From the NCBI GenBank assembly GCA_023248535.1, contig JAHFEJ010000024.1, forward strand, positions 1 to 39,995: DNA of 39,995 nucleotides, written 5' to 3'. Position numbers and translations under genes: made by a program. The stretch is from Nitrospinales bacterium. GTDB taxonomy: Bacteria > Nitrospinota_A > UBA7883 > JACRGQ01. Shown one piece after another: positions 2,127 to 39,847 of this stretch. Numbering within the stretch: position 1 is the stretch's first letter; every line of letters starts with the position of its first letter. The notes under the pieces were generated by a model. The model saw only the letters and a program-made list of their open reading frames with translations. It did no database searches and was not told the origin of the DNA.

Positions 2127-3164
2127 ATGATACTTCCCTTTGGCGCTAAAGAACGGGCGGAATATTATCGGCTTCTTGATGGCATGTTCGACTCGAATTT
2201 CTGGTCGGATGGGCCGCTGACGAGGCGTTTTGAAGAGGATTTTTCGCGGTTCACCACTCATTCCCACGCCTGTGCCTTTTCTTCCGGCGGTTTGGCCCTA
2301 CTTGGTATGCTCGAATATCTAGATGTCAGGGGCGCTGAGGTAATAGTTCCCACTAATACCTTTATGGCCACGCCGCTGGCGGTTCAGCGGGCGGGGGGGA
2401 GGGTGGTATTCGCCGATTGTGGGCGCGCCGATCTTTGCCTGACGCTGGCCGAAGTAAAGCGTTTGACGAACGAAAAAACCAAAGCGGTTATGGTGGTGCA
2501 TATCGGCGGCCATATCGCCTTTGAAATTGAAGGGATTGCCGCGTTTTGCAGGGAAAAAGGCATTGCGCTGATTGAAGATTGCGCTCACGCCCATGGCGCC
2601 ACATTTAAGGGGAAAACCGCCGGCTCTTGGGGCATCGGAGGGGCGTATTCATTTTATGCCACCAAGACGATGCCGACCGGGGAAGGGGGCATGGTGGTGA
2701 CGAACGACCGGGGGTTCGATGAGTGGCTTAAGATGTGGCGTAACTATGGTAAAAAAGTGGAGAAGGTGAACGGCGAAAATGTTATAACCTATCCCCTTAC
2801 CAGCGGCTTTCATGCCCGCATGCCGGAAACAACGGCCGCGCTCGGCATCGTGCAGCTTAAGCGGATGCCGGAGATGCTTGAGTGGAAAAGGAAATTGGCG
2901 GAAAAGTATGACCGGATTTTCGAGCGCCATGTGCATTTTCCTGCCGGCATGGAGTCGGGTTATTACAAATATATTGTTTTTGATTACGCTCTGAAGGAAA
3001 AAACCGGTCCGGTATTTGGCGAATTGTGCAACTGGTTCCTCAAGGATGGCAAGACCTATGCCGAATCCGAGTGGGTGGCCAAGCACCATGCGTGTCCGCC
3101 TATGTATTTTGGCTGGGAACATTCCGATAAGAGTGTGGACGCGCTGAGAAAAATACTGTTGTGA
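2127..3164 (+). CDS. DegT/DnrJ/EryC1/StrS-family PLP-dependent aminotransferase
   Basis: 345 aa; IEDCAHAHGA and SFYATKTMPTGEGGM with PLP lysine retained. Confidence 0.93.
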   Translation: MILPFGAKERAEYYRLLDGMFDSNFWSDGPLTRRFEEDFSRFTTHSHACAFSSGGLALLGMLEYLDVRGAEVIVPTNTFMATPLAVQRAGGRVVFADCGRADLCLTLAEVKRLTNEKTKAVMVVHIGGHIAFEIEGIAAFCREKGIALIEDCAHAHGATFKGKTAGSWGIGGAYSFYATKTMPTGEGGMVVTNDRGFDEWLKMWRNYGKKVEKVNGENVITYPLTSGFHARMPETTAALGIVQLKRMPEMLEWKRKLAEKYDRIFERHVHFPAGMESGYYKYIVFDYALKEKTGPVFGELCNWFLKDGKTYAESEWVAKHHACPPMYFGWEHSDKSVDALRKILL

Positions 3165-3781
3165 TTGTGGCTGTAATTCCGGCGCGTGGAGGGAGCAAGG
3201 GTATCCCCCGTAAAAATATTCGCGACATGGCGGGGAAGCCCCTGATTGCTTGGAGCATAGAAGCGGCGAAAAAAAGCCGCTTCATTGACCAGACAGTGGT
3301 TTCGACGGAAGACGAAGAAATTGCCACCATTGCGCGGTCATTTGGCGCGGAAGTTGTCATGCGTCCGGCGGAGCTTGCCACCGATGAGGCTTCAACCCTT
3401 GCGGTTTTGCGCCATGTGATAAACCACGTTTCGTGCGATACCGTGGTGGTGTTGCAGCCGACTTCGCCTGTGCGGCGGCCGGGATTGGTGGATGATTGCA
3501 TCTGTGAATTTCAAGCGGCCGGCGCGGATTCGCTTGCTACCGGCTGGTGGTGCAAATACACCGAGTACGCCAGCAATGTGAAGCGCCGGCAGGACATCGC
3601 CGGCTTTTTTTATGACGATGGAAACGTTTACGTCATTAAAGCGGAACTTTTGAAGCAAGGTGGCCGGTATGGAAGTAAAATAGTCCGCAAGGTCGTTTCG
3701 CGGGAAGAAAACCTTGATATCGATGACGAGTTTGATTTCTGGATGGCGGAAAAGGTTTTACGCGAGAGGGTGAAAGGATGA
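3161..3781 (+). CDS. Acylneuraminate cytidylyltransferase-like (NeuA/PseF/LegF family)
   Basis: 206 aa; IPARGGSKGIPRKNIRDMAGKPLI, LQPTSPVR, FYDDGNVYV, IDDEFDF; GTGA overlap with upstream gene. Confidence 0.92.
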   Translation: MIVAVIPARGGSKGIPRKNIRDMAGKPLIAWSIEAAKKSRFIDQTVVSTEDEEIATIARSFGAEVVMRPAELATDEASTLAVLRHVINHVSCDTVVVLQPTSPVRRPGLVDDCICEFQAAGADSLATGWWCKYTEYASNVKRRQDIAGFFYDDGNVYVIKAELLKQGGRYGSKIVRKVVSREENLDIDDEFDFWMAEKVLRERVKG

Positions 3782-4455
3782 ACATGGGACGGAAGATATT
3801 GGTTGTTGCTCCGCACATGGATGATGAAACGCTGGGGATGGGGGGAACGATTGCCCGCCACTGCGATGCGGGGGATTCGGTCTCCGTCTGCGTTGTGGCA
3901 CACCGTATTTACGATGGCAAGTTTGACAAAGCGGCAAATGATCGGGAGAAGGAGCATTGCCGCGCAGCGGTGAAAGAACTCGGTTGTCAAAACATCGAGT
4001 TTCTGGATTTGAACGATGAGCGGCTGGATGTGGCGATACAGGATATTATCAAGCCGATTGAACGGCTGATGGCAAAAGTTTCCCCCAGCTTGGTATACAG
4101 CAATTTTCATGGCGATAACAACCAGGATCACCGGGCTGTTTTTCAGGCGTTGCGGGTAGTGCTCAGGCCCTATGCGCGCCACACCGCCACGGAATGGCAT
4201 TTGTACGAAGTTCCTTCCTCCTCGGACCAGTCGCCCCCGGTTTTGGAAGCGGCTTTCCTGCCCAATTATTATGTCGATATTAGCGCTACGTTCGCCCGCA
4301 AGGTGGCGGCCCTTGCCTGCTATGAAACCGAGTTGCGAAAGCCTCCCCATCCGCGGTCACGGGAATATTTGGAAGCGCTGGCTGTAAAGCGTGGCGGCGA
4401 GATGGGTTTATTGAAGGCGGAGGCCTTCATGATGATGCGCAACGTATGGCGGTAG
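3778..4455 (+). CDS. PIG-L/LmbE-family deacetylase
   Basis: 225 aa; VVAPHMDDETLGMGGTIARH metal-binding motif and FHGDNNQDHRAVFQA; ATGA overlap. Confidence 0.92.
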   Translation: MNMGRKILVVAPHMDDETLGMGGTIARHCDAGDSVSVCVVAHRIYDGKFDKAANDREKEHCRAAVKELGCQNIEFLDLNDERLDVAIQDIIKPIERLMAKVSPSLVYSNFHGDNNQDHRAVFQALRVVLRPYARHTATEWHLYEVPSSSDQSPPVLEAAFLPNYYVDISATFARKVAALACYETELRKPPHPRSREYLEALAVKRGGEMGLLKAEAFMMMRNVWR

Positions 4456-6164
4456 AGCGCGGGTATATCGGCGTAGTGCAGGTGCGCTACCGGTCGGACG
4501 AACTCCCCGGCAAGAGCCTTTTGGGGTTGGGGGATACAACCGTCCTCACCTATTTGCTTGAGCGGCTGAAAAGCGCCTCGTTTCTCAAAAAGCTGGTGGT
4601 GGCCACCACGCCGGAAGCTGAAGATGACATAGTCGAGCGTCAAGCCGCCGCTTGTGGCGTTCCCGTATACCGGGGCGCGGCCGATGACGTTATCAGGCGT
4701 TTGTACGGCGCGGTGAAGGACGGGCAGCCATACGGCATCGTAAGGATACTGGGGAACACCCCCTTGGTGGACATTCGCGATATGGAGGAGATGCTCCGGT
4801 TGCACCGTGATGGCGGGTATGACTATGCCTATAACGAGCATGTGAACGGCGTTATTTTCGGCATGGGGTGTTCGGTGTTCAGTTACAAGATATTGGAGGA
4901 GTTGACCAACAACCAATCGCTCACCCCGGAGCAAAGGGAAATCGGGTCACTCTACATCCGCCAACATCCGGAAAAATTCAAGATTCTGAAAAAAGACGCC
5001 GTTAATGCGCGCCCTTTATACCGGGTCACGCTTGATGAGCCGCGGGATGCTGAACTCATAAAGTCCATTATAGGGCATCTCCCGGTGATCGATAACGATA
5101 CCGTTGGCGAATACCTCGACCAGAATCCGCTTTTGACGGTGTATCAGAAAGGTTCCACCGTTTCGGAAACGGGGGTGGACAAGCTGTTTTTATTTCCTTC
5201 CAAAATTGAAAAATATCTTACGGCCTCATTTGACACTACCTATCCCGTCAGCGTGGAGCTTTCCCTGACTAACGTATGCAATTTCGATTGTGAATGGTGT
5301 TCCGACAGCGGCTTGCGTGAGCGTCTTGGGGGGGAGTTCTCGGTTGATGATATGCGCCGTCTTTTTCATGACCTGAAGGAGGGGGGAACCAAGGGCGTGG
5401 TTATCGAGGGCGGCGGCGAACCGATGATCCATAAGGACTTCCGGGCCATTGCACTGCTCGCCGCGGAGACGGGGCTGGCGCTTGGCATGATCACCAACGG
5501 TTCCGTGCCGCTGGACGCCGATCTCATTCCCCTGTTCGAATGGGTGCGGGTGAGTTTGGACGCGGCCACACCCGAACAGCACGCAAAGGCGAAAAAAGTA
5601 CACGTCTTTGAGCGGGTAATGGAGAATATAAAACATTTAGGCGAACACAAGGGGAAAACGACCATTGGCGTGGGGTATGTTGTCACCAGGGAAAACATTG
5701 ATAATCTCGAAAACCTTCTCCTGCGCCTGCGGAACTACAAAGTGGATTACATCCAACTCCGGCCGGTTATTGACTGTCCCCACCTTTGGCCGGATACCGA
5801 TTTGGCCTTCCTGAAAAAATATGAAACGGCGGCTTTCCGGGTGGACATTGGTGCCATGTACGCCAACGATGTGCGCGGCAATGCCGGCAAGGCGTGTGTC
5901 GCCCACTCCATCAGCACGGTTATCACGGCGGACGGCGGGGTGTACCTCTGCGGCCGTCTTAACATCTACGATTGGGTCAAGCCAATCGGCAATTTGCATG
6001 CGGCCACGTTCAATGAAATATGGCATGGTGAAGAGCGGCGGTTGCAGGCCGGCAAGGTTGCGGATCCCGCGTTTTGCAAGGAACACTGCCCCGAGTGCCG
6101 CATGACAAAATACAACATTCTTATCGACCGCGCGAGAAACTTCAAAACGAGGAGCTTCATTTAG
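4446..6164 (+). CDS. Fusion protein: N-terminal SpsF-like cytidylyltransferase domain plus radical SAM/SPASM domain
   Basis: 572 aa; N-terminus LPGKSLLGLGDTTVLTYLLERL and YRGAADDVIRRLYGA; then LTNVCNFDCEWCSDSG (CxxxCxxC) and C-terminal cysteine-rich SPASM region CVAHSIS...LCG...CKEHCPEC. Confidence 0.9.
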   Translation: MAVERGYIGVVQVRYRSDELPGKSLLGLGDTTVLTYLLERLKSASFLKKLVVATTPEAEDDIVERQAAACGVPVYRGAADDVIRRLYGAVKDGQPYGIVRILGNTPLVDIRDMEEMLRLHRDGGYDYAYNEHVNGVIFGMGCSVFSYKILEELTNNQSLTPEQREIGSLYIRQHPEKFKILKKDAVNARPLYRVTLDEPRDAELIKSIIGHLPVIDNDTVGEYLDQNPLLTVYQKGSTVSETGVDKLFLFPSKIEKYLTASFDTTYPVSVELSLTNVCNFDCEWCSDSGLRERLGGEFSVDDMRRLFHDLKEGGTKGVVIEGGGEPMIHKDFRAIALLAAETGLALGMITNGSVPLDADLIPLFEWVRVSLDAATPEQHAKAKKVHVFERVMENIKHLGEHKGKTTIGVGYVVTRENIDNLENLLLRLRNYKVDYIQLRPVIDCPHLWPDTDLAFLKKYETAAFRVDIGAMYANDVRGNAGKACVAHSISTVITADGGVYLCGRLNIYDWVKPIGNLHAATFNEIWHGEERRLQAGKVADPAFCKEHCPECRMTKYNILIDRARNFKTRSFI

Positions 6165-6247
6165 TGCACACGGGGCGCGAATACCATAACGGCCTATCCC
6201 AAACAGGAGACGGCTCCGTATATTGGCTTGGGTCCAAAAAGCCATGA
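6164..6247 (+). CDS. Possible 27-codon small ORF MHTGREYHNGLSQTGDGSVYWLGSKKP
   Basis: GTG start shares one base with the TAG stop of the fusion gene; TGA stop overlaps the ATG of wbqC (ATGA). Coding status unproven. Confidence 0.3.
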   Translation: MHTGREYHNGLSQTGDGSVYWLGSKKP

Positions 6248-6945
6248 TTGTCACCATTCAACAGCCAGAGCATCTTCCCTGGCTTGGGTTCTTTAATAAA
6301 ATGGCGCAATGCGACTTGTATGTGTATCTGGATAATGTGCAGTTCAAAAAACGCTATTTTGAAAACCGCAACCGCATTCGCACCAAAGAGGGTGAGCAAT
6401 GGCTTACCGTTCCGGTGCTGACCAAGGGGAGTTACGAGCAAAAGCTGCGCGATGTGGCGATTCAGGACGATGCCGCGTGGAAAAGAAAATACCTCGGCAC
6501 ACTTGAGCATAATTATAAAAAAGCGCCGTATTGGGCGGATGTCCGATCAATAGTATATCCGGCTCTGGAAGCTTCCGGAAACTCGTTGTTGAACCTCAAT
6601 CTGTCGTTGATCGAAGCGGTGCGCGGGTACCTCGGCATTGATACGAAAACGGTGCTGGCTTCATCGCTGGGCGTGGATGAGTATGCGGGAAGCGACCTTA
6701 TTCTGGAAATTTCGAAGGTGACCGGCGCATCGGTTTATATCAGCGGTCCGGATGGCCGCAACTACCTTCAGTTGGATCGGTTTCAAGCGGCAGGCATTAA
6801 GGTGGGCTATCATGATTTTACGCATCCCGAATATTCCCAGCCGTTTGTTCCGTTCATGCCGTATATGTCTATTATCGACTGTATCGCAAATTGCGGGAAA
6901 GACACGGGGCGGATCGTGCGCGACTGCTACAGGATAACCGTATGA
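6244..6945 (+). CDS. wbqC: WbqC-family protein
   Basis: MIVTIQQPEHLPWLGFFNKMAQCDLYVYLDNVQFKKRYFENRNRIRT is characteristic of WbqC; ATG at 6244 preferred over TTG at 6223. Confidence 0.9.
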   Translation: MIVTIQQPEHLPWLGFFNKMAQCDLYVYLDNVQFKKRYFENRNRIRTKEGEQWLTVPVLTKGSYEQKLRDVAIQDDAAWKRKYLGTLEHNYKKAPYWADVRSIVYPALEASGNSLLNLNLSLIEAVRGYLGIDTKTVLASSLGVDEYAGSDLILEISKVTGASVYISGPDGRNYLQLDRFQAAGIKVGYHDFTHPEYSQPFVPFMPYMSIIDCIANCGKDTGRIVRDCYRITV

Positions 6946-8003
6946 AGATAAACAAAGGCCAATTCGTTCTTTCCCGGTGGAAGCAGTGGCAGTTTGATTA
7001 CCGGAGGGCCAAGGGGCACATCTTCAGTTACCTCAAGAACCGGTTTTATTGGCACTACATCCCCCGGATGAAACATGTGCTTTCCTTTCCCGATCACGTT
7101 GACTTGGAAATCGCATCCGCCTGCAACCTGCGCTGTCCCATGTGTTACACCATCACGGATGAATTTAAGCAACAGGTGAAGCGGTCATTTATGGATTTTG
7201 ACCTTTTCAAAAAATTGGTGGATGAGTGCGCTGCAAATGGCGTTTATTCAATACGGCTGTCGCTTCGCGGCGAGGCGTTTTTGCACAAAAATGTAATTGA
7301 GATGATCGCGTATGCCAAAAGCAAGGGAATCAAGGAGGTCGCCAGCCTGACGAACCTGTACAGCTTGCCGCCGGAAAAATTCGAGGCAGCGATGAAGGCG
7401 GGCCTTGATTGGCTTACCGTCTCATTTGACGGGCTTGACGGAATGTACGAGAAGGTACGTACGCCGGCAAAATTTCCAGAGATGTATGCGCGGATAAAGG
7501 AGTTCAAGCGGATCAAGGACAAGTATGGTTCCATCAAGCCCGTGATCAAGATACAAACGCTTTGGCCCGCCATCAAGGAAGACCCCGTGGCGTATTACAA
7601 TGCTTTTGACCCGTATGTGGATCACATTGCCTCCAACCCGCTTATTGACTATCTCCATAATGACGGGCAGGAAACAATAGAGTACGAAAATAACTTTACC
7701 TGCCCGGTGTTGTTTCAGCGCCTGGTTGTCGGGTCGGACGGCGTTGTACTACTCTGCTCAAATGATGAAATGGGGAAATTTATCGTCGGTGATTCAAACA
7801 AGGAAACGTTGAAACAGATATGGCATGGAAAGCGAATGACGGAGGCCCGGAAGCTGCATCTTGAACATCGCGGACATCTTGAAATACCCTGCTGCCTGGA
7901 GTGCTATCTCCCCCGCAAGACAGAGCCGGTGCTTGAAAGTTTTGGCGACTCGAATATTGTGGTGGATAAATACATTGGCCGCGCGGACGAGATAGGAAGG
8001 TGA
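6942..8003 (+). CDS. Radical SAM/SPASM-domain protein
   Basis: CNLRCPMC motif and C-terminal cysteines (LLCSNDEMGKF...CCLECYLPRK); ATGA overlap at 6942. Confidence 0.92.
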   Translation: MKINKGQFVLSRWKQWQFDYRRAKGHIFSYLKNRFYWHYIPRMKHVLSFPDHVDLEIASACNLRCPMCYTITDEFKQQVKRSFMDFDLFKKLVDECAANGVYSIRLSLRGEAFLHKNVIEMIAYAKSKGIKEVASLTNLYSLPPEKFEAAMKAGLDWLTVSFDGLDGMYEKVRTPAKFPEMYARIKEFKRIKDKYGSIKPVIKIQTLWPAIKEDPVAYYNAFDPYVDHIASNPLIDYLHNDGQETIEYENNFTCPVLFQRLVVGSDGVVLLCSNDEMGKFIVGDSNKETLKQIWHGKRMTEARKLHLEHRGHLEIPCCLECYLPRKTEPVLESFGDSNIVVDKYIGRADEIGR

Positions 8004-8017
8004 AGGAGTTGAAGAGC

Positions 8018-9046
8018 ATGGAATTCAAGCTGGGTGGAAAAACGGTCGGTCCCGGCCGGCCTTCTTACATCATCGCGGAGATCGGGTACAACTTTAATAC
8101 AATGGAAGAAGGGATCGCCTCGATAGAGGCGGCCGCGCGTTGTGGGGTAGATGCCGTGAAGTTTCAGACCTTCCGCGCCGAAACGATCACTTCGAAGCTG
8201 AACGATTTTCCGCCGGAGGCGGGTGGCGGCAGCCAGTACGATGAATTCAAGAGTTACGAAATGGATGAGGCGCAGCACCGTGCGCTGTGGGATGCCGCCA
8301 AACGGCTTGGATTGGACGTGTTTTCGACCCCAAGCTATTACGATGACGCCGAACTGTTGATGAAGGTTGGCGTGCCGGCTTTCAAAACAGGCGCGGATGA
8401 CCTTACCAATCTGCCGTTTCTCTCTTACCTCGCCAAGCACGGTATCCCGATGATCGTTTCAACCGGTATGGGGACGATGGAAGAGGTGGCGGCCGCCGTG
8501 GATACCGTTCTTTCCACGGGCAATGACAAGCTGATAATGTTGCACACCGTGAGCAACTATCCAATCAAGGATATTGCGGATGTGAATCTCAGGGCGATGG
8601 TCACGATACGCAATGCCTTTGGGATATTGACCGGCTACTCCGACCACACCACCACGCTGTCGGTGCCGATGGCGGCGGCGGCGTTGGGAATGGCGGTGTA
8701 CGAACGCCACTTCACGCTTGATAAAAAAATTCCGGCGCCCGATTGCGCGTTGTCGGCGGATCCGGCCGAGATGGCCGCCATCGTAAAAGGCATTCGCGAA
8801 GTGGAGGCGGCCATGGGGGACGGCCTTAAGCGTCCTGCAAAGTCCGAGAAGGATATGCGCAAGGATGCGCGCAAGTCGATCATGGCGGCGCGTGACATTG
8901 CGCCCGGAACGGTGTTACGCAAGGAAGACATCATCATTAAGCGTCCCGCATGGGGCATTCAGCCGAAGGAAATGGGAGCGCTGATAGGGCGCACCCTTAA
9001 AAAAGGGATTAAGAAAGATCATCCCATAACGTGGGAAGATGTGTGA
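8018..9046 (+). CDS. N-acetylneuraminate synthase-like (NeuB/PseI/LegI family) with C-terminal SAF-like domain
   Basis: YIIAEIGYNFN, GVDAVKFQTFRAETI, FKTGADDLTNLPFL, LHTVSNYP, GYSDHT, ERHFTLDKKIPAPD; C-terminal RKSIMAARDIAPGTVL. Confidence 0.92.
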   Translation: MEFKLGGKTVGPGRPSYIIAEIGYNFNTMEEGIASIEAAARCGVDAVKFQTFRAETITSKLNDFPPEAGGGSQYDEFKSYEMDEAQHRALWDAAKRLGLDVFSTPSYYDDAELLMKVGVPAFKTGADDLTNLPFLSYLAKHGIPMIVSTGMGTMEEVAAAVDTVLSTGNDKLIMLHTVSNYPIKDIADVNLRAMVTIRNAFGILTGYSDHTTTLSVPMAAAALGMAVYERHFTLDKKIPAPDCALSADPAEMAAIVKGIREVEAAMGDGLKRPAKSEKDMRKDARKSIMAARDIAPGTVLRKEDIIIKRPAWGIQPKEMGALIGRTLKKGIKKDHPITWEDV

Positions 9047-10056
9047 GTTCTCCTTTATCCTTTCTCATCCGGACCCGGGGCAACCATAAACAGGGGATGG
9101 GAGATATTACCGGTTCGCTGCGTCTTGCGGAAGCGTTGCTTCAGATGGGGCATGATCCGCTGATTGCCGCGGACCCGGACCGGGAAGCGGTGGAATTCTT
9201 GCGCGATGCCGGGTGGGATCGTTGTGTGACCATATCATCGATAAATGAGGAACGGGAACTGCTGCGCAAGCGCCGTCCCGACGTGCTAGTGACCTACTGG
9301 GTGGACAATCCGCCGGGGTATCTGGAGGCCGTGAGGGGAGAAGTCCGGTTTCTCGCGGCGGTGGACGATGTCACGGAGGCCGCCCGCCGGTTTGCCAATC
9401 TGCGGGTGAACCCCCTTTACCCGGTCGAAGGTGCCACGAATGATATGCGGTTTGTTACCCTTGCGCCGGTTTTCAGGGAACTTCATGCGCTGCCCAGGCG
9501 CACCGAAACGGTAAAGAGTATCCTTGTCACGCAGGGGGGGGCGGACACATACGGTTTTACCCCTATGATTGTCAGCGGCCTTTCCGGGGTGCCAGAACCG
9601 GTGAGAATAACAGTGGTGTTGGGGCCGGCGTTTCAGCATGACCGCGAATTGGATGAAGCGCTCCGGAATGCTTCCCGCCGGTTTGATATTATCCGAAACG
9701 CGCGCAATATGCCCGATCTGCTGATGGAGCACGACCTTGTGATAACGGCGGCGGGGAACACACTGTTTGAGGCGGCCTGTACCGGCATTCCCGCCGTGAT
9801 TGTTTGCGGTGAAGAGTTTGAAGATATAACCGCACGCCGTTTTCAGAAGGAAGGGTACGGCGTAAATCTTGGTTTTGGCGGGCGGGTAACGGCTGCCAAT
9901 GTCCGCATGGCTGTTGAACGGATTATGGCGGATGAAGACGCCCGCCGCGTCATGGCGGAGGCCGGCAAACGATTGGTGAAGGGGGATGGAGCCGCTTTGA
10001 CCGCCGCGCTTATCGTGGAGCGCTATCAGGCCAAATTGGTTGAAGAGGGACGATAG
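9031..10056 (+). CDS. SpsG/PseG-like protein (GT-B fold nucleotide-sugar hydrolase or glycosyltransferase)
   Basis: N-terminal RGNHKQGMGDITGSLRLAEALLQMGHD and C-terminal NMPDLLMEHDLVITAAGNTLFEAACTGIPAVIV. Confidence 0.82.
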   Translation: MGRCVSSPLSFLIRTRGNHKQGMGDITGSLRLAEALLQMGHDPLIAADPDREAVEFLRDAGWDRCVTISSINEERELLRKRRPDVLVTYWVDNPPGYLEAVRGEVRFLAAVDDVTEAARRFANLRVNPLYPVEGATNDMRFVTLAPVFRELHALPRRTETVKSILVTQGGADTYGFTPMIVSGLSGVPEPVRITVVLGPAFQHDRELDEALRNASRRFDIIRNARNMPDLLMEHDLVITAAGNTLFEAACTGIPAVIVCGEEFEDITARRFQKEGYGVNLGFGGRVTAANVRMAVERIMADEDARRVMAEAGKRLVKGDGAALTAALIVERYQAKLVEEGR

Positions 10057-10066
10057 AGGAGAGGAT

Positions 10067-10825
10067 ATGAAAGAACGGGTTGTGGCTGTTATTGAAGCGC
10101 GGATGGGGTCCACGCGTCTTCCCCGCAAGACACTGATGGATGTGGCCGGGAAAACATTGCTTGAGCGGGTGGTGGATCGCCTTCGGCTGGCGCGAAGCGT
10201 TCATGAAGTTGTTGTGGCCACATCGACAAATGCGGGGGACAATCAGATAGAAGCGTTATGCGCGGAACGCGGGATCGCTTGTTTCCGCGGGAGCGAAGAC
10301 GATGTGCTGGAACGTGTGCATGGAGCTTCGGATCGTTATAAAGCCGATGTTGTGGTACAGTCGGGCGCGGATTGTCCGTTCTACGACCCCGACTTGGTTG
10401 ACCAGTTGGTTTATACGCTTATTTGGGGCGGCTATGCTTATACCGCGAACGATATGGAACTTACCTTTCCGGAGGGCGTTGATGCGCACGTTATCCGTTT
10501 CGACGCCCTTGAAGCTTCGGCGCGCGAAGCCAAAAAAGAGGATGAGCGTGAGGATACGCCCCGGTTTATTTGGAACCATCCGAAGCGGTTTCCTATCTTC
10601 AATTTGAAGGCGCAACCGGGGAGCTTTTATAACAGGACGGATATCCGCGTGACCATTGATTACGCGGAAGACATGGAACTGTGCCGGAAAATTTATACGG
10701 CATTCGGCGGGAAGGTCGATTTTTCCACGCGGGATTTGATAGAGCTTTTGGACGCCAATCCAGAGTGGATAAAGATAAACGCCAATTGCGAACAGCGGTC
10801 GGCAGCCTATGTGAAAAAGGAGTAG
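10067..10825 (+). CDS. spsF: SpsF-like cytidylyltransferase family protein
   Basis: VAVIEARMGSTRLPRKTLMDVAGKTLLERVVDRL, VVATSTNAGDNQI, CFRGSEDDVLERV, GADCPFYDP; RBS-like gaggagagg upstream. Confidence 0.9.
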   Translation: MKERVVAVIEARMGSTRLPRKTLMDVAGKTLLERVVDRLRLARSVHEVVVATSTNAGDNQIEALCAERGIACFRGSEDDVLERVHGASDRYKADVVVQSGADCPFYDPDLVDQLVYTLIWGGYAYTANDMELTFPEGVDAHVIRFDALEASAREAKKEDEREDTPRFIWNHPKRFPIFNLKAQPGSFYNRTDIRVTIDYAEDMELCRKIYTAFGGKVDFSTRDLIELLDANPEWIKINANCEQRSAAYVKKE

Positions 10826-14340: not shown

Positions 14341-15819
14341 TTAAAACCGGAACAAAACCCTGATTTTTGTTTTTAGTTCTTTAGACAATTGCATTGATAC
14401 AGTATGTTGGAGCCAGAGGAGGATAGCTTTCAGATAGTTCCCTTTTTTCCATTGGTAGCTGACTATCACATCCCGCTTAAAGCGAACCATGGAGCGGTTG
14501 AGCCATGCATCGGAGTGTTTTGTCAAGTTCACCCGCAATACACTTGCGTTTCCAAGGTTTAATAAAAACTGTTCTTTGTCGGCGATTAAATTGTTGGCCA
14601 TACAGTAATCCCATAGGGGGGTTTCCGGGAAAGGGATGGGGAAATTCAGGGAGAAGCTTGGTACACCCAACTGTTTTATAAAGTTGATACTGTCGTTGAT
14701 AGTCTCGTCGGTTTCTTCCGGGAACCCAATGATCATTTCCGGCACATTGGTTAAGCCGCACTTTAAGGTCAATAAGCCGGCATTGATATTGTCTTGGCGT
14801 GTTGTGCCCTTGCTCGTACCCTTAAGGACGATATCGGATCCCGACTCGTATCCGTAATTAATCATTAAGCAGCCGCTTGATTTGAGAGCGTTAAGCATTT
14901 CCTCGTCCACATTGCATGAGCGGGCGCTTAGCACCACATACCGGATATCCATGTTGCGCCGCTTTATCTCGGCGCAAAAATGCATGATCCATTTTTTTGT
15001 CACGGTCGTCAACTCATCGCCGATATAAAAGAGGTTGATATCAAAAGCATCCCTTAGATATTGCATATGATTAAGGACGAACTCGACGCTTTGCTGCCGC
15101 ACTCCTTTCACATGGCGGTAGCAAAACGAACATGCATGTGTGCACCCGCGGGAGGTCATCATTGCAAAGATTTTTGGGTATTTTTCCGCGAGTTCTTCGA
15201 TATCCTTCCCGCTCCAGTGCATTTCAAGAAATTCGCGGTAAGCCTCAACCCATTGGCTCGTGGGGGTAATGTATTGCGAGATGTTTACCATGTCATATGG
15301 GGGCATTCCGATTTCGTCAAGGTTCTTGACTTGAGTCGGCCGGGGAGTGTCAATGATTTGTCCGTTTTCCAAAAACGAGATACCGGGAACATTCCGGAAG
15401 TCTTTTCCGGTGCGCAGGCATTCAAGCAGATCGGGGAAGGAGTAATCAGCTTCACCGCGAACGCATATGTCGATGCCGGCCTTCGTGAGCAATAAATCGG
15501 TAACGGAGGTAATGATACCCCCCGCGACGAAGGGTGTTTCAGGAAACTCTTTTTTCAGGGCGAGGGCGAGGGGTTTCAAATGGCGATAGGATGGGGTGAT
15601 TCCACCAAAGCCGATAAGCGCCGGGTTGTATTGCCGGGTTATATCAATTACCTGTTCGGTGGTGAGCTTGTTCATCGTAAGATCGTGTACTTGAACGGGG
15701 TATCCGGCCTTTCGCGCAATGTTCGCGGCCGCCAAAACACCAAACGGAATAGATCCGTTTACTTCCCGGGATGGAACATCGAAGAGAATTATGCGAAAGT
15801 CATTGATTGCGCTGTTCAT
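14341..15819 (-). CDS. B12-binding-domain radical SAM protein
   Basis: 492 aa; N-terminal Rossmann-like region, MTSRGCTHACSFCYRH (CxxxCxxC), ESGSD and MIIGFPEETDETI typical of the class. Confidence 0.9.
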   Translation of the reverse strand: MNSAINDFRIILFDVPSREVNGSIPFGVLAAANIARKAGYPVQVHDLTMNKLTTEQVIDITRQYNPALIGFGGITPSYRHLKPLALALKKEFPETPFVAGGIITSVTDLLLTKAGIDICVRGEADYSFPDLLECLRTGKDFRNVPGISFLENGQIIDTPRPTQVKNLDEIGMPPYDMVNISQYITPTSQWVEAYREFLEMHWSGKDIEELAEKYPKIFAMMTSRGCTHACSFCYRHVKGVRQQSVEFVLNHMQYLRDAFDINLFYIGDELTTVTKKWIMHFCAEIKRRNMDIRYVVLSARSCNVDEEMLNALKSSGCLMINYGYESGSDIVLKGTSKGTTRQDNINAGLLTLKCGLTNVPEMIIGFPEETDETINDSINFIKQLGVPSFSLNFPIPFPETPLWDYCMANNLIADKEQFLLNLGNASVLRVNLTKHSDAWLNRSMVRFKRDVIVSYQWKKGNYLKAILLWLQHTVSMQLSKELKTKIRVLFRF

Positions 15820-25154: not shown

Positions 25155-26201
25155 TTATTTTCCCGTAAAGGTTCGAATGCTTCTAACCAGTTTTTTTGCA
25201 AACTTTTCACGACGGGTTGCGTACCCCATGCAGTGACGGCAACATTCGTAGGGGCTGCCGACATTTCGAATTTGGTCAACGAGGGCCGTATATTTTCTAA
25301 ATATGGCGTCCAGCGGTTCCGTCCTCATGGAGGCAAAGGTCGTCTGATGGCGAAAATCGATACAGCAGAATTTCACTTGCCCGTCGCCATAAAAAACAAA
25401 ATTGTCTGTAGAGCACGTTGGGGGATCATCGGTGGGGATTTTGCCGTAGAAGTTTTTGGTATCCACAAACCTTTTTAGCCCCACAACAACCCGCCCATCC
25501 GCGGTATTGGCGACCGCCCGTTGCCATGAATACCGCTTGGAAGTTCCTTCTCCACGCACGAGGGGAACTCCGCTTCTATCTGAAAGGTTTTTTACGAAAG
25601 CCGGCAGATACCCCATTTGCTCATTAAAAAATGGGATGTGAATATTCTCCCTCTTCCCTAGTATTTTTCTGGAAAAACTCCGGTCGTTATACGCCACTTC
25701 GATGGAGATGAGCGTGGAATGGCAGTTCTCATAAAAGAAGCGGAGCAACCGGCCCACCGAATCGAGATAAGCATCCCAACTCACGCCTTTCAGCCGCGTG
25801 TTTGCCAAAAACTGTTGTTCGGTTATGGTTTGCACACCTATAACAAGTTGCTTGGGGGGGAAGTTCTTGTACTCTTCAATGTCTTTAGGATAAACAGAAC
25901 CGTTGGTTGCTATAAGATAATTAAGCCCCCTTTTTTTCAGTTCCGGCAAATAGAAAGTAGTTAGCCCTTTCGTAAGAAAAAATTCGCTCACGTTGGTGAG
26001 GCGCACCATCTCAAGGTTTTTCAGGTTTGCCGCGGCATAATCGATGATTTGCAGGTAAAGGTCATCAGGAAAACGAACAAGGCCCCCTTTGTTAGGTGGA
26101 TCATCAAGTGAAAGTGAGCAATAATCGCAAGTCATGTTGCATAAATTGGTAAGCTCTATGCTTATGTTTTTTATGTCGGTTATCGCAAAATTCTTCATCA
26201 T
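25155..26201 (-). CDS. Radical SAM protein with SPASM-like C-terminus
   Basis: 348 aa; LTNLCNMTCDYCSLS (CxxxCxxC) and C-terminal FYGDGQVKFCCIDF...YECCRHCMGY. Confidence 0.9.
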   Translation of the reverse strand: MMKNFAITDIKNISIELTNLCNMTCDYCSLSLDDPPNKGGLVRFPDDLYLQIIDYAAANLKNLEMVRLTNVSEFFLTKGLTTFYLPELKKRGLNYLIATNGSVYPKDIEEYKNFPPKQLVIGVQTITEQQFLANTRLKGVSWDAYLDSVGRLLRFFYENCHSTLISIEVAYNDRSFSRKILGKRENIHIPFFNEQMGYLPAFVKNLSDRSGVPLVRGEGTSKRYSWQRAVANTADGRVVVGLKRFVDTKNFYGKIPTDDPPTCSTDNFVFYGDGQVKFCCIDFRHQTTFASMRTEPLDAIFRKYTALVDQIRNVGSPYECCRHCMGYATRREKFAKKLVRSIRTFTGK

Positions 26202-38126: not shown

Positions 38127-39599
38127 TTACCGGTTTTTAAGGTGCAATTTCTTCTGGGGAAGAATTGCCTTCATCTGGTAAACCGTCTCCACGATCAGCT
38201 CCTTGATTTTCCTGCCGAACGCGGTTCTCGGTTTTTTGGGAGGAACGATGGTCTGGTAAATGAGCCGCATGACATGGATGCCCCCCCATGTCCACTTGGG
38301 GAGAAGAACATACCAGTCGAAGAAACCCTGGTAGCCGATCAGCGTGCGGGGCGGAATGTTGGGGTTCTTGATCGCCACCTCCGAATAGTAGTTGGTGGTG
38401 TCCTTGATGTTCTTGTCGATCAGATTGTTTTCCAGACAGTGCGTCCAGAGCGCCGTGCCGGGCAGAGGCATAAAAATGGTGCATAGCACCCGGTGGGGTT
38501 TCAACTCGCGGTTTACTTCGATGGTTTCCCGTATGGTATCCATGGTTTCCCCGGGAACGCCGAGCATGTTGAAGCTTGAGGACATCATGCCGTGCTCGTG
38601 CACGATGTTGTAGGCCGCCAGCACCTGCTCCATGGAGACCTTTTTCTTGAGGATGACATTGCGGATGTTTTCGTTGCCGTTTTCAATGGCCATATTGACC
38701 ATGAAACAGCCGGCGTCGGCAAGATGTTTTGCCAGTTCTTCATTCATGTGATCCACGCGGGTCTGCACCATGAAAGGTTTATTGATCCGTTTTTTATATT
38801 CCTGGCAGAATTCCAGGACGCGCTCTTGGTTGAGCGTGAACATTTCGTCGGAAAAATAGAAGGAGGGCGCCTGGTATTTGTCGATAACGTACTCCATCTC
38901 GGCGAACACGTTGTCGAAACTCCGGTACCGCACGAACTTCCCTTTTCTTTTGTAAATGTCCATCAGCGCTTTGTTTTGGCAGAACGTGCAGGGGAACGGG
39001 CAACCCCGCGCCGTGAGAATGTTCGCGCCGGTCAATTCCGCCCGGTAATACTTAGGTTCCATCAGATCCCTGTTGGGAAAAGGAACCGAATCGAGGTCGT
39101 CCACCAGGTGCGGCGTACCGGTTCTGGTTATTTTTCCGCTGGAGGATTTTCCCCATATGCCGGTAACGGTTAGCGGATCCTTTCCGCTTTGGAACTTTTC
39201 CAAAAATTCGGGTATGACGTTCTCGGCTTCGCCCGTGCAGATGAAGTCAACTTCGGGTTCATTTATGCACTCTTCGGGCTGCAAAATGGGCTGTATCCCA
39301 CCCCAAATGACCGGGACTTTATAGCGGTTCCGCGCAATGCCGGAAAGCTGTTTCGTAATGTTGTAATCCTGAATCATCACTGAAAAGCCAACCATGTCCG
39401 GCTTATATTCGTCCATTTTCCGGACAAATCCTTCCACGATCCGCTCCGCGGTTGTTTTTGTCCACGACTGCTTTTTGTAAGGGGAAAAGTGAAACAACGC
39501 GGTCTGGTGACCCGCATTTCCCATTACCGCGCTGACATACATGATGTTGAGGGGGACTTCGCGTACCACGAATCCCGGATATACCAATAAAATTTTCAT
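38127..39599 (-). CDS. B12-binding-domain radical SAM protein (second copy)
   Basis: MKILLVYPGF..., ILTARGCPFPCTFCQN (CxxxCxxC), MAIENGNENIRNVILKK, FNMLGVPGETMDTI; ATG at 39599 preferred. Confidence 0.92.
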   Translation of the reverse strand: MKILLVYPGFVVREVPLNIMYVSAVMGNAGHQTALFHFSPYKKQSWTKTTAERIVEGFVRKMDEYKPDMVGFSVMIQDYNITKQLSGIARNRYKVPVIWGGIQPILQPEECINEPEVDFICTGEAENVIPEFLEKFQSGKDPLTVTGIWGKSSSGKITRTGTPHLVDDLDSVPFPNRDLMEPKYYRAELTGANILTARGCPFPCTFCQNKALMDIYKRKGKFVRYRSFDNVFAEMEYVIDKYQAPSFYFSDEMFTLNQERVLEFCQEYKKRINKPFMVQTRVDHMNEELAKHLADAGCFMVNMAIENGNENIRNVILKKKVSMEQVLAAYNIVHEHGMMSSSFNMLGVPGETMDTIRETIEVNRELKPHRVLCTIFMPLPGTALWTHCLENNLIDKNIKDTTNYYSEVAIKNPNIPPRTLIGYQGFFDWYVLLPKWTWGGIHVMRLIYQTIVPPKKPRTAFGRKIKELIVETVYQMKAILPQKKLHLKNR

Positions 39600-39847
39600 T
39601 TGGTCACTCCTGTTGCTTCGCAATAACCGCCAACTTAAAAAGCGTTTGGGCTTATCAAGCGAAAGGCGCGGATTATGTTTCTTGGTATTTTAAGCAATGT
39701 TGCGACACAATATCATATTGCCGGGTTCAAAACAATATTACAGCGGCCCCCCCAATCTCCGGTTAATGCTAATCACAATTCATGAAGAAACGTATTCCAA
39801 CCATGATTGACAATATCAACGCCACATATCCGGCCCGGCATGGCCTT

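Follow-up and report, generated by a model that had tools for sequence, protein, structure and literature searches.

A single gene in the window, i.e. the whole 39,995-nucleotide stretch of DNA analysed here, encodes NT-rSAM (P0001), in which a degenerate SpsF-like cytidylyltransferase domain is fused to a radical SAM core and a SPASM/Twitch-like domain. Computational analysis identified these domains, degeneration of the CTP and metal sites, conserved cysteines in the radical half, a conserved nonulosonic acid (NulO) gene cluster around the gene, and alternation of NT-rSAM with an SDR in sister clusters. The best explanation, to which we give an even chance, is that NT-rSAM is a tailoring enzyme of a NulO pathway, in which an activated sugar bound by the dead domain is oxidised or epimerised by the radical domain, in place of the SDR. 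This explanation is preferred because of the conserved cluster, the SDR alternation and the co-occurrence with PseF, together with the degenerate nucleotidyltransferase site, the folds and auxiliary cysteines of the radical half, and the precedent of EpaA.

NT-rSAM is encoded by a single ORF at 4446-6164 (plus strand) with an ATG at 4446, a stop at 6164 and 0 internal stops, in agreement with the original prediction of an uninterrupted 572-aa frame. When the window was shuffled 30 times the longest ORF was 262 aa, compared to 572 aa for NT-rSAM. The predicted joining of an SpsF-like domain to a radical SAM core was likewise confirmed, with CTP_transf_3 (PF02348, residues 8-207) at 68.6 bits against a Pfam cut-off of 22.6, and Radical_SAM (PF04055, residues 273-425, with CNFDCEWC at residues 278-285) at 74.4 bits against 29.5. 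The SPASM model matched residues 484-549 (33.2 bits, Pfam cut-off 21.5). GC3 was similar between the two halves (0.69 and 0.66), and the first 10 bases of NT-rSAM are also the last 10 of the PIG-L gene, placing NT-rSAM within a tight gene run. The features of the ORF are:

4446..6164, plus strand: NT-rSAM, predicted fused pseudo-cytidylyltransferase / radical SAM / Twitch-like SPASM protein, 572 aa
4467..5066, plus strand: N-terminal CTP_transf_3 (SpsF-like) domain, residues 8-207 (Pfam); best PDB fold 6oew; degenerate catalytic residues
4755..4757, plus strand: codon 104 (Asn), at the position of the Asp in the SpsF GDxP motif
5139..5231, plus strand: linker, residues 232-262, low model confidence; holds ETGVDKLFLFP, near the start of solo relatives
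5262..5720, plus strand: radical SAM core, residues 273-425; CNFDCEWC at 5277-5300
5895..6092, plus strand: SPASM/Twitch-like domain, residues 484-549 (Pfam)

The search for the same architecture elsewhere, which the original prediction had proposed, recovered the fusion in four further genomes: G614 (Omnitrophota), G773 and G999 (both Nitrospirota) and G1421 (Desulfobacterota).

Nonulosonic acids decorate flagella, capsules and LPS. The gene run containing NT-rSAM holds both a NeuB-family synthase and a PseF-like CMP-NulO synthetase, the combination used to define a NulO cluster; the PseF and NeuB scores lie under the NCBIfam equivalog cut-offs, so the assignment is to NulO in general and not to one particular NulO. 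Gene order in the window is DegT1, PseF-like, PIG-L, NT-rSAM, WbqC, rSAM2, NeuB, PseG-like and SpsF, with the genes other than NT-rSAM as follows:

2127..3164, plus strand: DegT1 aminotransferase, adjoining NT-rSAM in G614, G773 and G999
3161..3781, plus strand: PseF-like CMP-NulO synthetase, motifs intact, 61-66% identity in three other fusion genomes
3778..4455, plus strand: PIG-L deacetylase, overlapping the NT-rSAM start
6223..6945, plus strand: WbqC-like protein
6891..8003, plus strand: rSAM2, second radical SAM/SPASM protein, probably starting at 6942; retained across these clusters and in one NeuB cluster from an archaeon
8000..9046, plus strand: NeuB-family NulO synthase with SAF domain, 247 bits
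9031..10056, plus strand: PseG-like protein (NDP-sugar hydrolase), 82 bits, below the cut-off of 153.55
10040..10825, plus strand: stand-alone SpsF-like cytidylyltransferase, catalytic residues intact; paralog of the fused domain

NulO clusters from several phyla retain the second radical SAM protein, rSAM2, as does a NeuB cluster of Hadesarchaea, where locus L040 contains rSAM2 with two NeuB and PseF. Between the two NeuB genes of this Hadesarchaea MAG lies a GT2 glycosyltransferase fused to CTP_transf_3 (L040:9782-11170). Elsewhere in the window three more radical SAM-like proteins, recognised by sequence and BLAST similarity only, are encoded on the minus strand (14341-15819, 25155-26201 and 38127-39623), for about five in 40 kb, counting NT-rSAM and rSAM2.

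DegT, PIG-L, PseF, WbqC, NeuB, PseG-like and rSAM2 genes were common to the window, G614 and G1421. The order in G614 is NT-rSAM, DegT1, PIG-L, PseF, WbqC, NeuB-like, PseG-like and rSAM2, and in G773 it is NT-rSAM, DegT1, PseF, GT2 and NeuB-like; in G999, NT-rSAM and DegT1 are followed by the contig end. The fusion of G1421 is located on a separate 3-kb contig and the remaining cluster genes on another, with a DegT nearer DegT2 than DegT1. Three sister clusters, in G1349 (L174), G1277 (L173) and Candidatus Anammoxibacter (L048), share the order DegT-SDR-PIGL-PseF with rSAM2 nearby. NT-rSAM was absent from these three SDR loci, and SDR and NT-rSAM never occurred in one locus; genome-wide absence from G1277 and G1349 refers to a search that scored the top three candidates per genome only. 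The SDR of L048 is 66-68% identical to those of G1349 and G1277, and the DegT1 of G614 is 69-70% identical to the SDR-adjoining DegT of the same two genomes.

The simplest reading of the three loci is that NT-rSAM would do the step of the SDR by radical chemistry. Replacement of a 4,6-dehydratase by NT-rSAM was considered and is not favoured, since the alternating SDR has the motif STTWVY without the Asp-Glu acid pair seen in the dehydratase RmlB. The SDR of the sister clusters may be an epimerase instead of a dehydrogenase. This counts against the best explanation, as do several other points: the replacement is drawn from three loci, the genome-wide absence of NT-rSAM from G1277 and G1349 comes from the top-three search, the DegT of G1421 is nearer DegT2, and G1277 encodes a PseB/PglF-like dehydratase beside DegT1 that could itself feed DegT1. 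A related cluster in G003, from the genus of the window, contains rSAM2, NeuB, SpsF, PseG-like, WbqC, PIG-L and two other SDRs, with no NT-rSAM.

Co-occurrence with PseF was examined across Desulfobacterota (395 genomes). Six genomes carried the radical half (E <= 1e-38) and nine carried this PseF subfamily (E <= 1e-48), with all 6 among the 9 (naive p = 1.7e-11, an optimistic value because the five genomes with a solo radical half may be related). Two of the three PseF-subfamily genomes without the radical half carry the SDR. The PseF locus of each solo genome holds a NeuB-like gene, and those of L165 and L166 flagellin genes as well. A gene with a weak MbnB/TglH/ChrH (MNIO-like) match was also observed in Desulfobacterota PseF loci (L165:7704-8579, minus strand, with relatives in L166, L167 and L175), situated between NeuB and a methyltransferase, in some loci with flagellin genes.

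Within the radical half, Cys 278, 282 and 285 of the CxxxCxxC motif for the SAM cluster were present in all 22 aligned relatives. The C-terminal domain contains five Cys (484, 502, 544, 548 and 551); Cys 544 is confined to the close clade, and the other four are conserved in all 22 relatives, save beyond the truncation point of G1421. Full SPASM domains bind two auxiliary clusters through a seven-Cys motif, CX9-15GX4C-gap-CX2CX5CX3C-gap-C (PMC6231123), whereas NT-rSAM has C484-x12-G497-x4-C502 followed only by C544-x3-C548-x2-C551. The SPASM-type cysteine cluster proposed originally therefore stands as a Pfam match and not as the full set of seven. Cys 484, 502, 548 and 551 provide four Cys able to ligate one cluster, as in Twitch domains, and by ligand count NT-rSAM probably carries one auxiliary cluster, Twitch-like rather than full SPASM. 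Foldseek searches with the radical half gave DesII as the best structural match, with SkfB, SuiB, BlsE and PqqE also recovered. The AlphaFold model had a mean pLDDT of 81 with the linker unresolved, and its alignment comprised 17 sequences with fused orthologs left out, leaving the interdomain arrangement uninformative. As a low-confidence linker joins the domains, the model shows no shared active site, which also counts against the best explanation.

From these features we infer the substrate, site and reaction of NT-rSAM as follows. The former CMP-sugar synthetase domain would not transfer nucleotides and would instead hold an activated sugar, probably a CMP- or NDP-sugar, while the radical SAM domain would generate a 5'-deoxyadenosyl radical that abstracts hydrogen at one of the sugar's carbinol carbons. 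The auxiliary Fe-S cluster would then accept an electron, yielding a ketone that neighbouring DegT1 could aminate; in the main variant the same carbon would be epimerised. NT-rSAM would thus occupy the place of the NAD-dependent SDR in sister clusters. The most specific form of this proposal, an NAD-free radical SAM enzyme acting on a nucleotide-activated NulO held by a dead CMP-sugar synthetase, replacing the SDR and giving an unusual amino or epimeric NulO, is offered more tentatively, at somewhat short of an even chance. The original suggestion that the radical SAM domain acts on a nucleotide-activated sugar acid fits the NulO cluster and the DesII and BlsE folds, with the substrate itself still one that we infer.

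With the domain roles otherwise unchanged, the radical domain might instead epimerise the bound sugar in the manner of NeoN, or deoxygenate or deaminate it in the manner of DesII, a possibility that we consider real but doubtful. DesII, a deaminase, is the best structural match of the radical half, the family of the alternating SDR includes epimerases, and the EpaA precedent ends in epimerisation. However, DesII has a single Fe-S cluster (PMC11434129) and hence no auxiliary one, unlike NT-rSAM with its four extra conserved Cys, so net oxidation suits NT-rSAM better than a DesII-like reaction. The adjoining DegT1 in three fusion loci also argues against it.

Many SPASM proteins of known function modify a protein or peptide, and the radical domain of NT-rSAM could do the same, in which case the N-terminal domain would serve for recognition or would sense a glycan. 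We regard this as improbable. Many of the NCBIfam models listed for NT-rSAM are peptide maturases, SkfB and SuiB rank high in the fold search, flagellin genes occur in the PseF loci of two solo genomes, and one distant relative adjoins flagellin and Maf. Yet the NCBIfam scores were far under their cut-offs, the N-terminal fold is that of a sugar nucleotidyltransferase, and an unsystematic look nearby revealed no RRE or precursor peptide.

The N-terminal half of NT-rSAM matched cytidylyltransferase 6oew (32% identity) and CMP-Kdo synthetases in Foldseek, and resembles SpsF and KdsB in fold and overall sequence. Legionaminic acid is the product of the sps genes in B. subtilis, where moving it onto the spore surface requires spsF (PMC7439481), suggesting that SpsF-like domains belong to NulO activation. 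In KdsB the CTP triphosphate is bound by R10, T14, R15 and K19, and a metal by two conserved Asp (PMC3149649); by CTP-loop spacing the four triphosphate residues were mapped to NT-rSAM residues 14, 18, 19 and 23, with the GDxP Asp at residue 104. Position 14, an invariant R in ten SpsF-like proteins, is R/T/T/S/T in the five fusions, and position 19, also an invariant R in the ten, is E/M/F/Y/T, such that the second CTP-loop Arg is lost in 5/5. The invariant K of position 23 is K/K/R/R/K, the D of position 104 (10/10 SpsF-like proteins) is N/N/N/H/N, and the invariant D of position 197 is D/D/D/A/E. The fused domain is thus SpsF-like by Pfam but without the full catalytic complement of CTP-loop Arg/Lys and metal-binding Asp, these CTP-loop arginines and the metal Asp of SpsF and KdsB being lost mostly or always. 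R85 and G103, by offset the KdsB cytosine/ribose contacts R76 and G94 (PMC3149649), are kept in 5/5 fusions, and Y129, N130, H132, G135 and G141 are invariant among the fusions and not in SpsF.

These residues make it almost certain that the cytidylyltransferase half is no longer catalytic, and the domain may be a binding module for which the beta and gamma phosphates have become dispensable, as they would be with a CMP-sugar. A substrate-binding module, one of two ideas raised originally, suits the loss of CTP-triphosphate and metal residues in five fusions better than an active cytidylyltransferase, and is favoured of the two. A bifunctional enzyme, whose active N-terminal domain activates the sugar that the radical domain modifies, is accordingly unlikely: the CTP_transf_3 score is well over its cut-off, K23 and D197 are each retained in 3/5 fusions, and the EpaA authors propose a dual role for their own fusion (PMC12053666), but the GDxP Asp is gone in 5/5, as is the second CTP-loop Arg. 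Furthermore, 4/5 fusion genomes encode an intact PseF, in the cluster itself or elsewhere in the genome (no strong match in G999), and the window additionally encodes an intact SpsF.

The NT-rSAM fusion is conserved but rare. Four full-length or near full-length orthologs with 40-55% identity were found in about 1,175 genomes, in 1/384 Omnitrophota (G614, 55%), 2/396 Nitrospirota (G773, 45%; G999, 40%) and 1/395 Desulfobacterota (G1421, 45% over residues 10-549, the contig ending at residue 549). No fusion was found in the other 23 genomes searched from the phylum of the window. Separate halves in relatives, which the original prediction named as a sign of artefact, were found in part: in five other Desulfobacterota only the radical half is present (43-49% identity), with no N-terminal partner adjoining, while five genomes carry the fusion. 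The solo proteins begin near a shared linker motif, E-x-G-x-x-K-x-x-L-F. The five fusions and five solo proteins formed one clade (98/97) apart from more distant relatives, with the solo proteins grouping together (92/89); it is possible that the fusion arose once (68/73, weak support). The solo radical gene is near RecO, Sel1-repeat or M24 metallopeptidase genes in 4/5 solo genomes, and the fifth adjoins an M17 aminopeptidase; such solo radical halves, without the nucleotidyltransferase domain and outside sugar clusters, count against the best explanation. An assembly or frameshift artefact is ruled out by the orthologs, the fusion being present in five genomes of at least four phyla. An accidental fusion of halves without joint function is hardly credible, for although SpsF-like proteins occur widely and the radical half occurs alone in five genomes, the five fusions share one junction and linker motif, and the invariant N-terminal residues Y129, N130, H132, G135 and G141 are specific to the fusions.

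Among mobile elements, viral contigs scanned with the NT-rSAM protein gave no match and phages a single weak match, to the N-terminal domain. Plasmids searched by tblastn held no full-length fusion, only stand-alone radical SAM relatives (about 30%) in Azospirillum and Streptomyces. On Streptomyces vietnamensis plasmid pSVL1 (L178:7770-13862) a radical SAM, a SPASM protein, UDP-galactopyranose mutase, WbqC, DegT and a separate MobA-like NTP transferase lie in one run, a possible unfused analogue of NT-rSAM. Two degenerate peptide patterns scanned against genome contigs detected no fusion, though the later genome searches did recover fusions.

The literature searched contained no paper joining radical SAM to nonulosonic or legionaminic acid. 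If the most specific form of the proposal is true, NT-rSAM and rSAM2 would open a radical-chemistry branch of NulO biosynthesis found in no paper searched. NT-rSAM also exemplifies a catalytic domain that has probably been turned to a new use, the holding of a substrate. Within these clusters for sialic-acid-like sugars, NT-rSAM, with its oxygen-sensitive radical half, takes the position that an ordinary NAD-dependent sugar oxidoreductase has in other bacteria, making a radical step on surface sugars testable. Its alternation with an SDR offers a concrete test for many unassigned radical SAM proteins in polysaccharide loci.

Several known systems resemble parts of NT-rSAM. DesII (PDB 8hzv) and BlsE (PDB 7vob), radical SAM enzymes acting on a TDP-sugar and a cytosine-sugar acid, respectively, rank high among the structural matches of the radical half; unlike NT-rSAM, neither has an N-terminal nucleotidyltransferase. 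DesII can also dehydrogenate TDP-quinovose (PMC11434129). The Twitch dehydrogenase BtrN has one four-Cys auxiliary cluster, comparable to the four conserved auxiliary Cys of NT-rSAM, and oxidises a carbinol to a ketone in a two-electron step (PMC9012708), with its fully ligated auxiliary cluster thought to accept an electron (PMC9012708, PMC6231123). Its substrate is a free cyclitol, it has no close sequence similarity to NT-rSAM, and it was absent among the matches listed (50 PDB fold matches).

The possibility, also raised originally, that the architecture is widespread with a known function was not borne out. Some members of spiro-SPASM (TIGR04321) combine a MobA-like NTP transferase, Radical_SAM and SPASM in one chain, and nearly all spirochaetes have the family (129/149 genomes over cut-off), with no known function found. 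NT-rSAM was rejected as a member (41.8 bits against a cut-off of 250), this similar layout belonging to a different family with an N-terminal domain degenerated differently. Several spiro-SPASM proteins (L115, L125 and other spirochaete loci) are without the CxxxCxxC motif and look like dead radical SAM proteins. The nearest precedent for NT-rSAM is EpaA, with an N-terminal CTP_transf_3 (5-192), a linker and then an oxidoreductase domain (PMC12053666), a likeness judged from the described domain layout. The C-terminal domain of EpaA is an aldo-keto reductase, compared to radical SAM in NT-rSAM. Together with EpaB, EpaA acts on a nonulosonic acid, converting Pse5Ac7Ac to 8ePse5Ac7Ac (8-epi-Pse) (PMC12053666).
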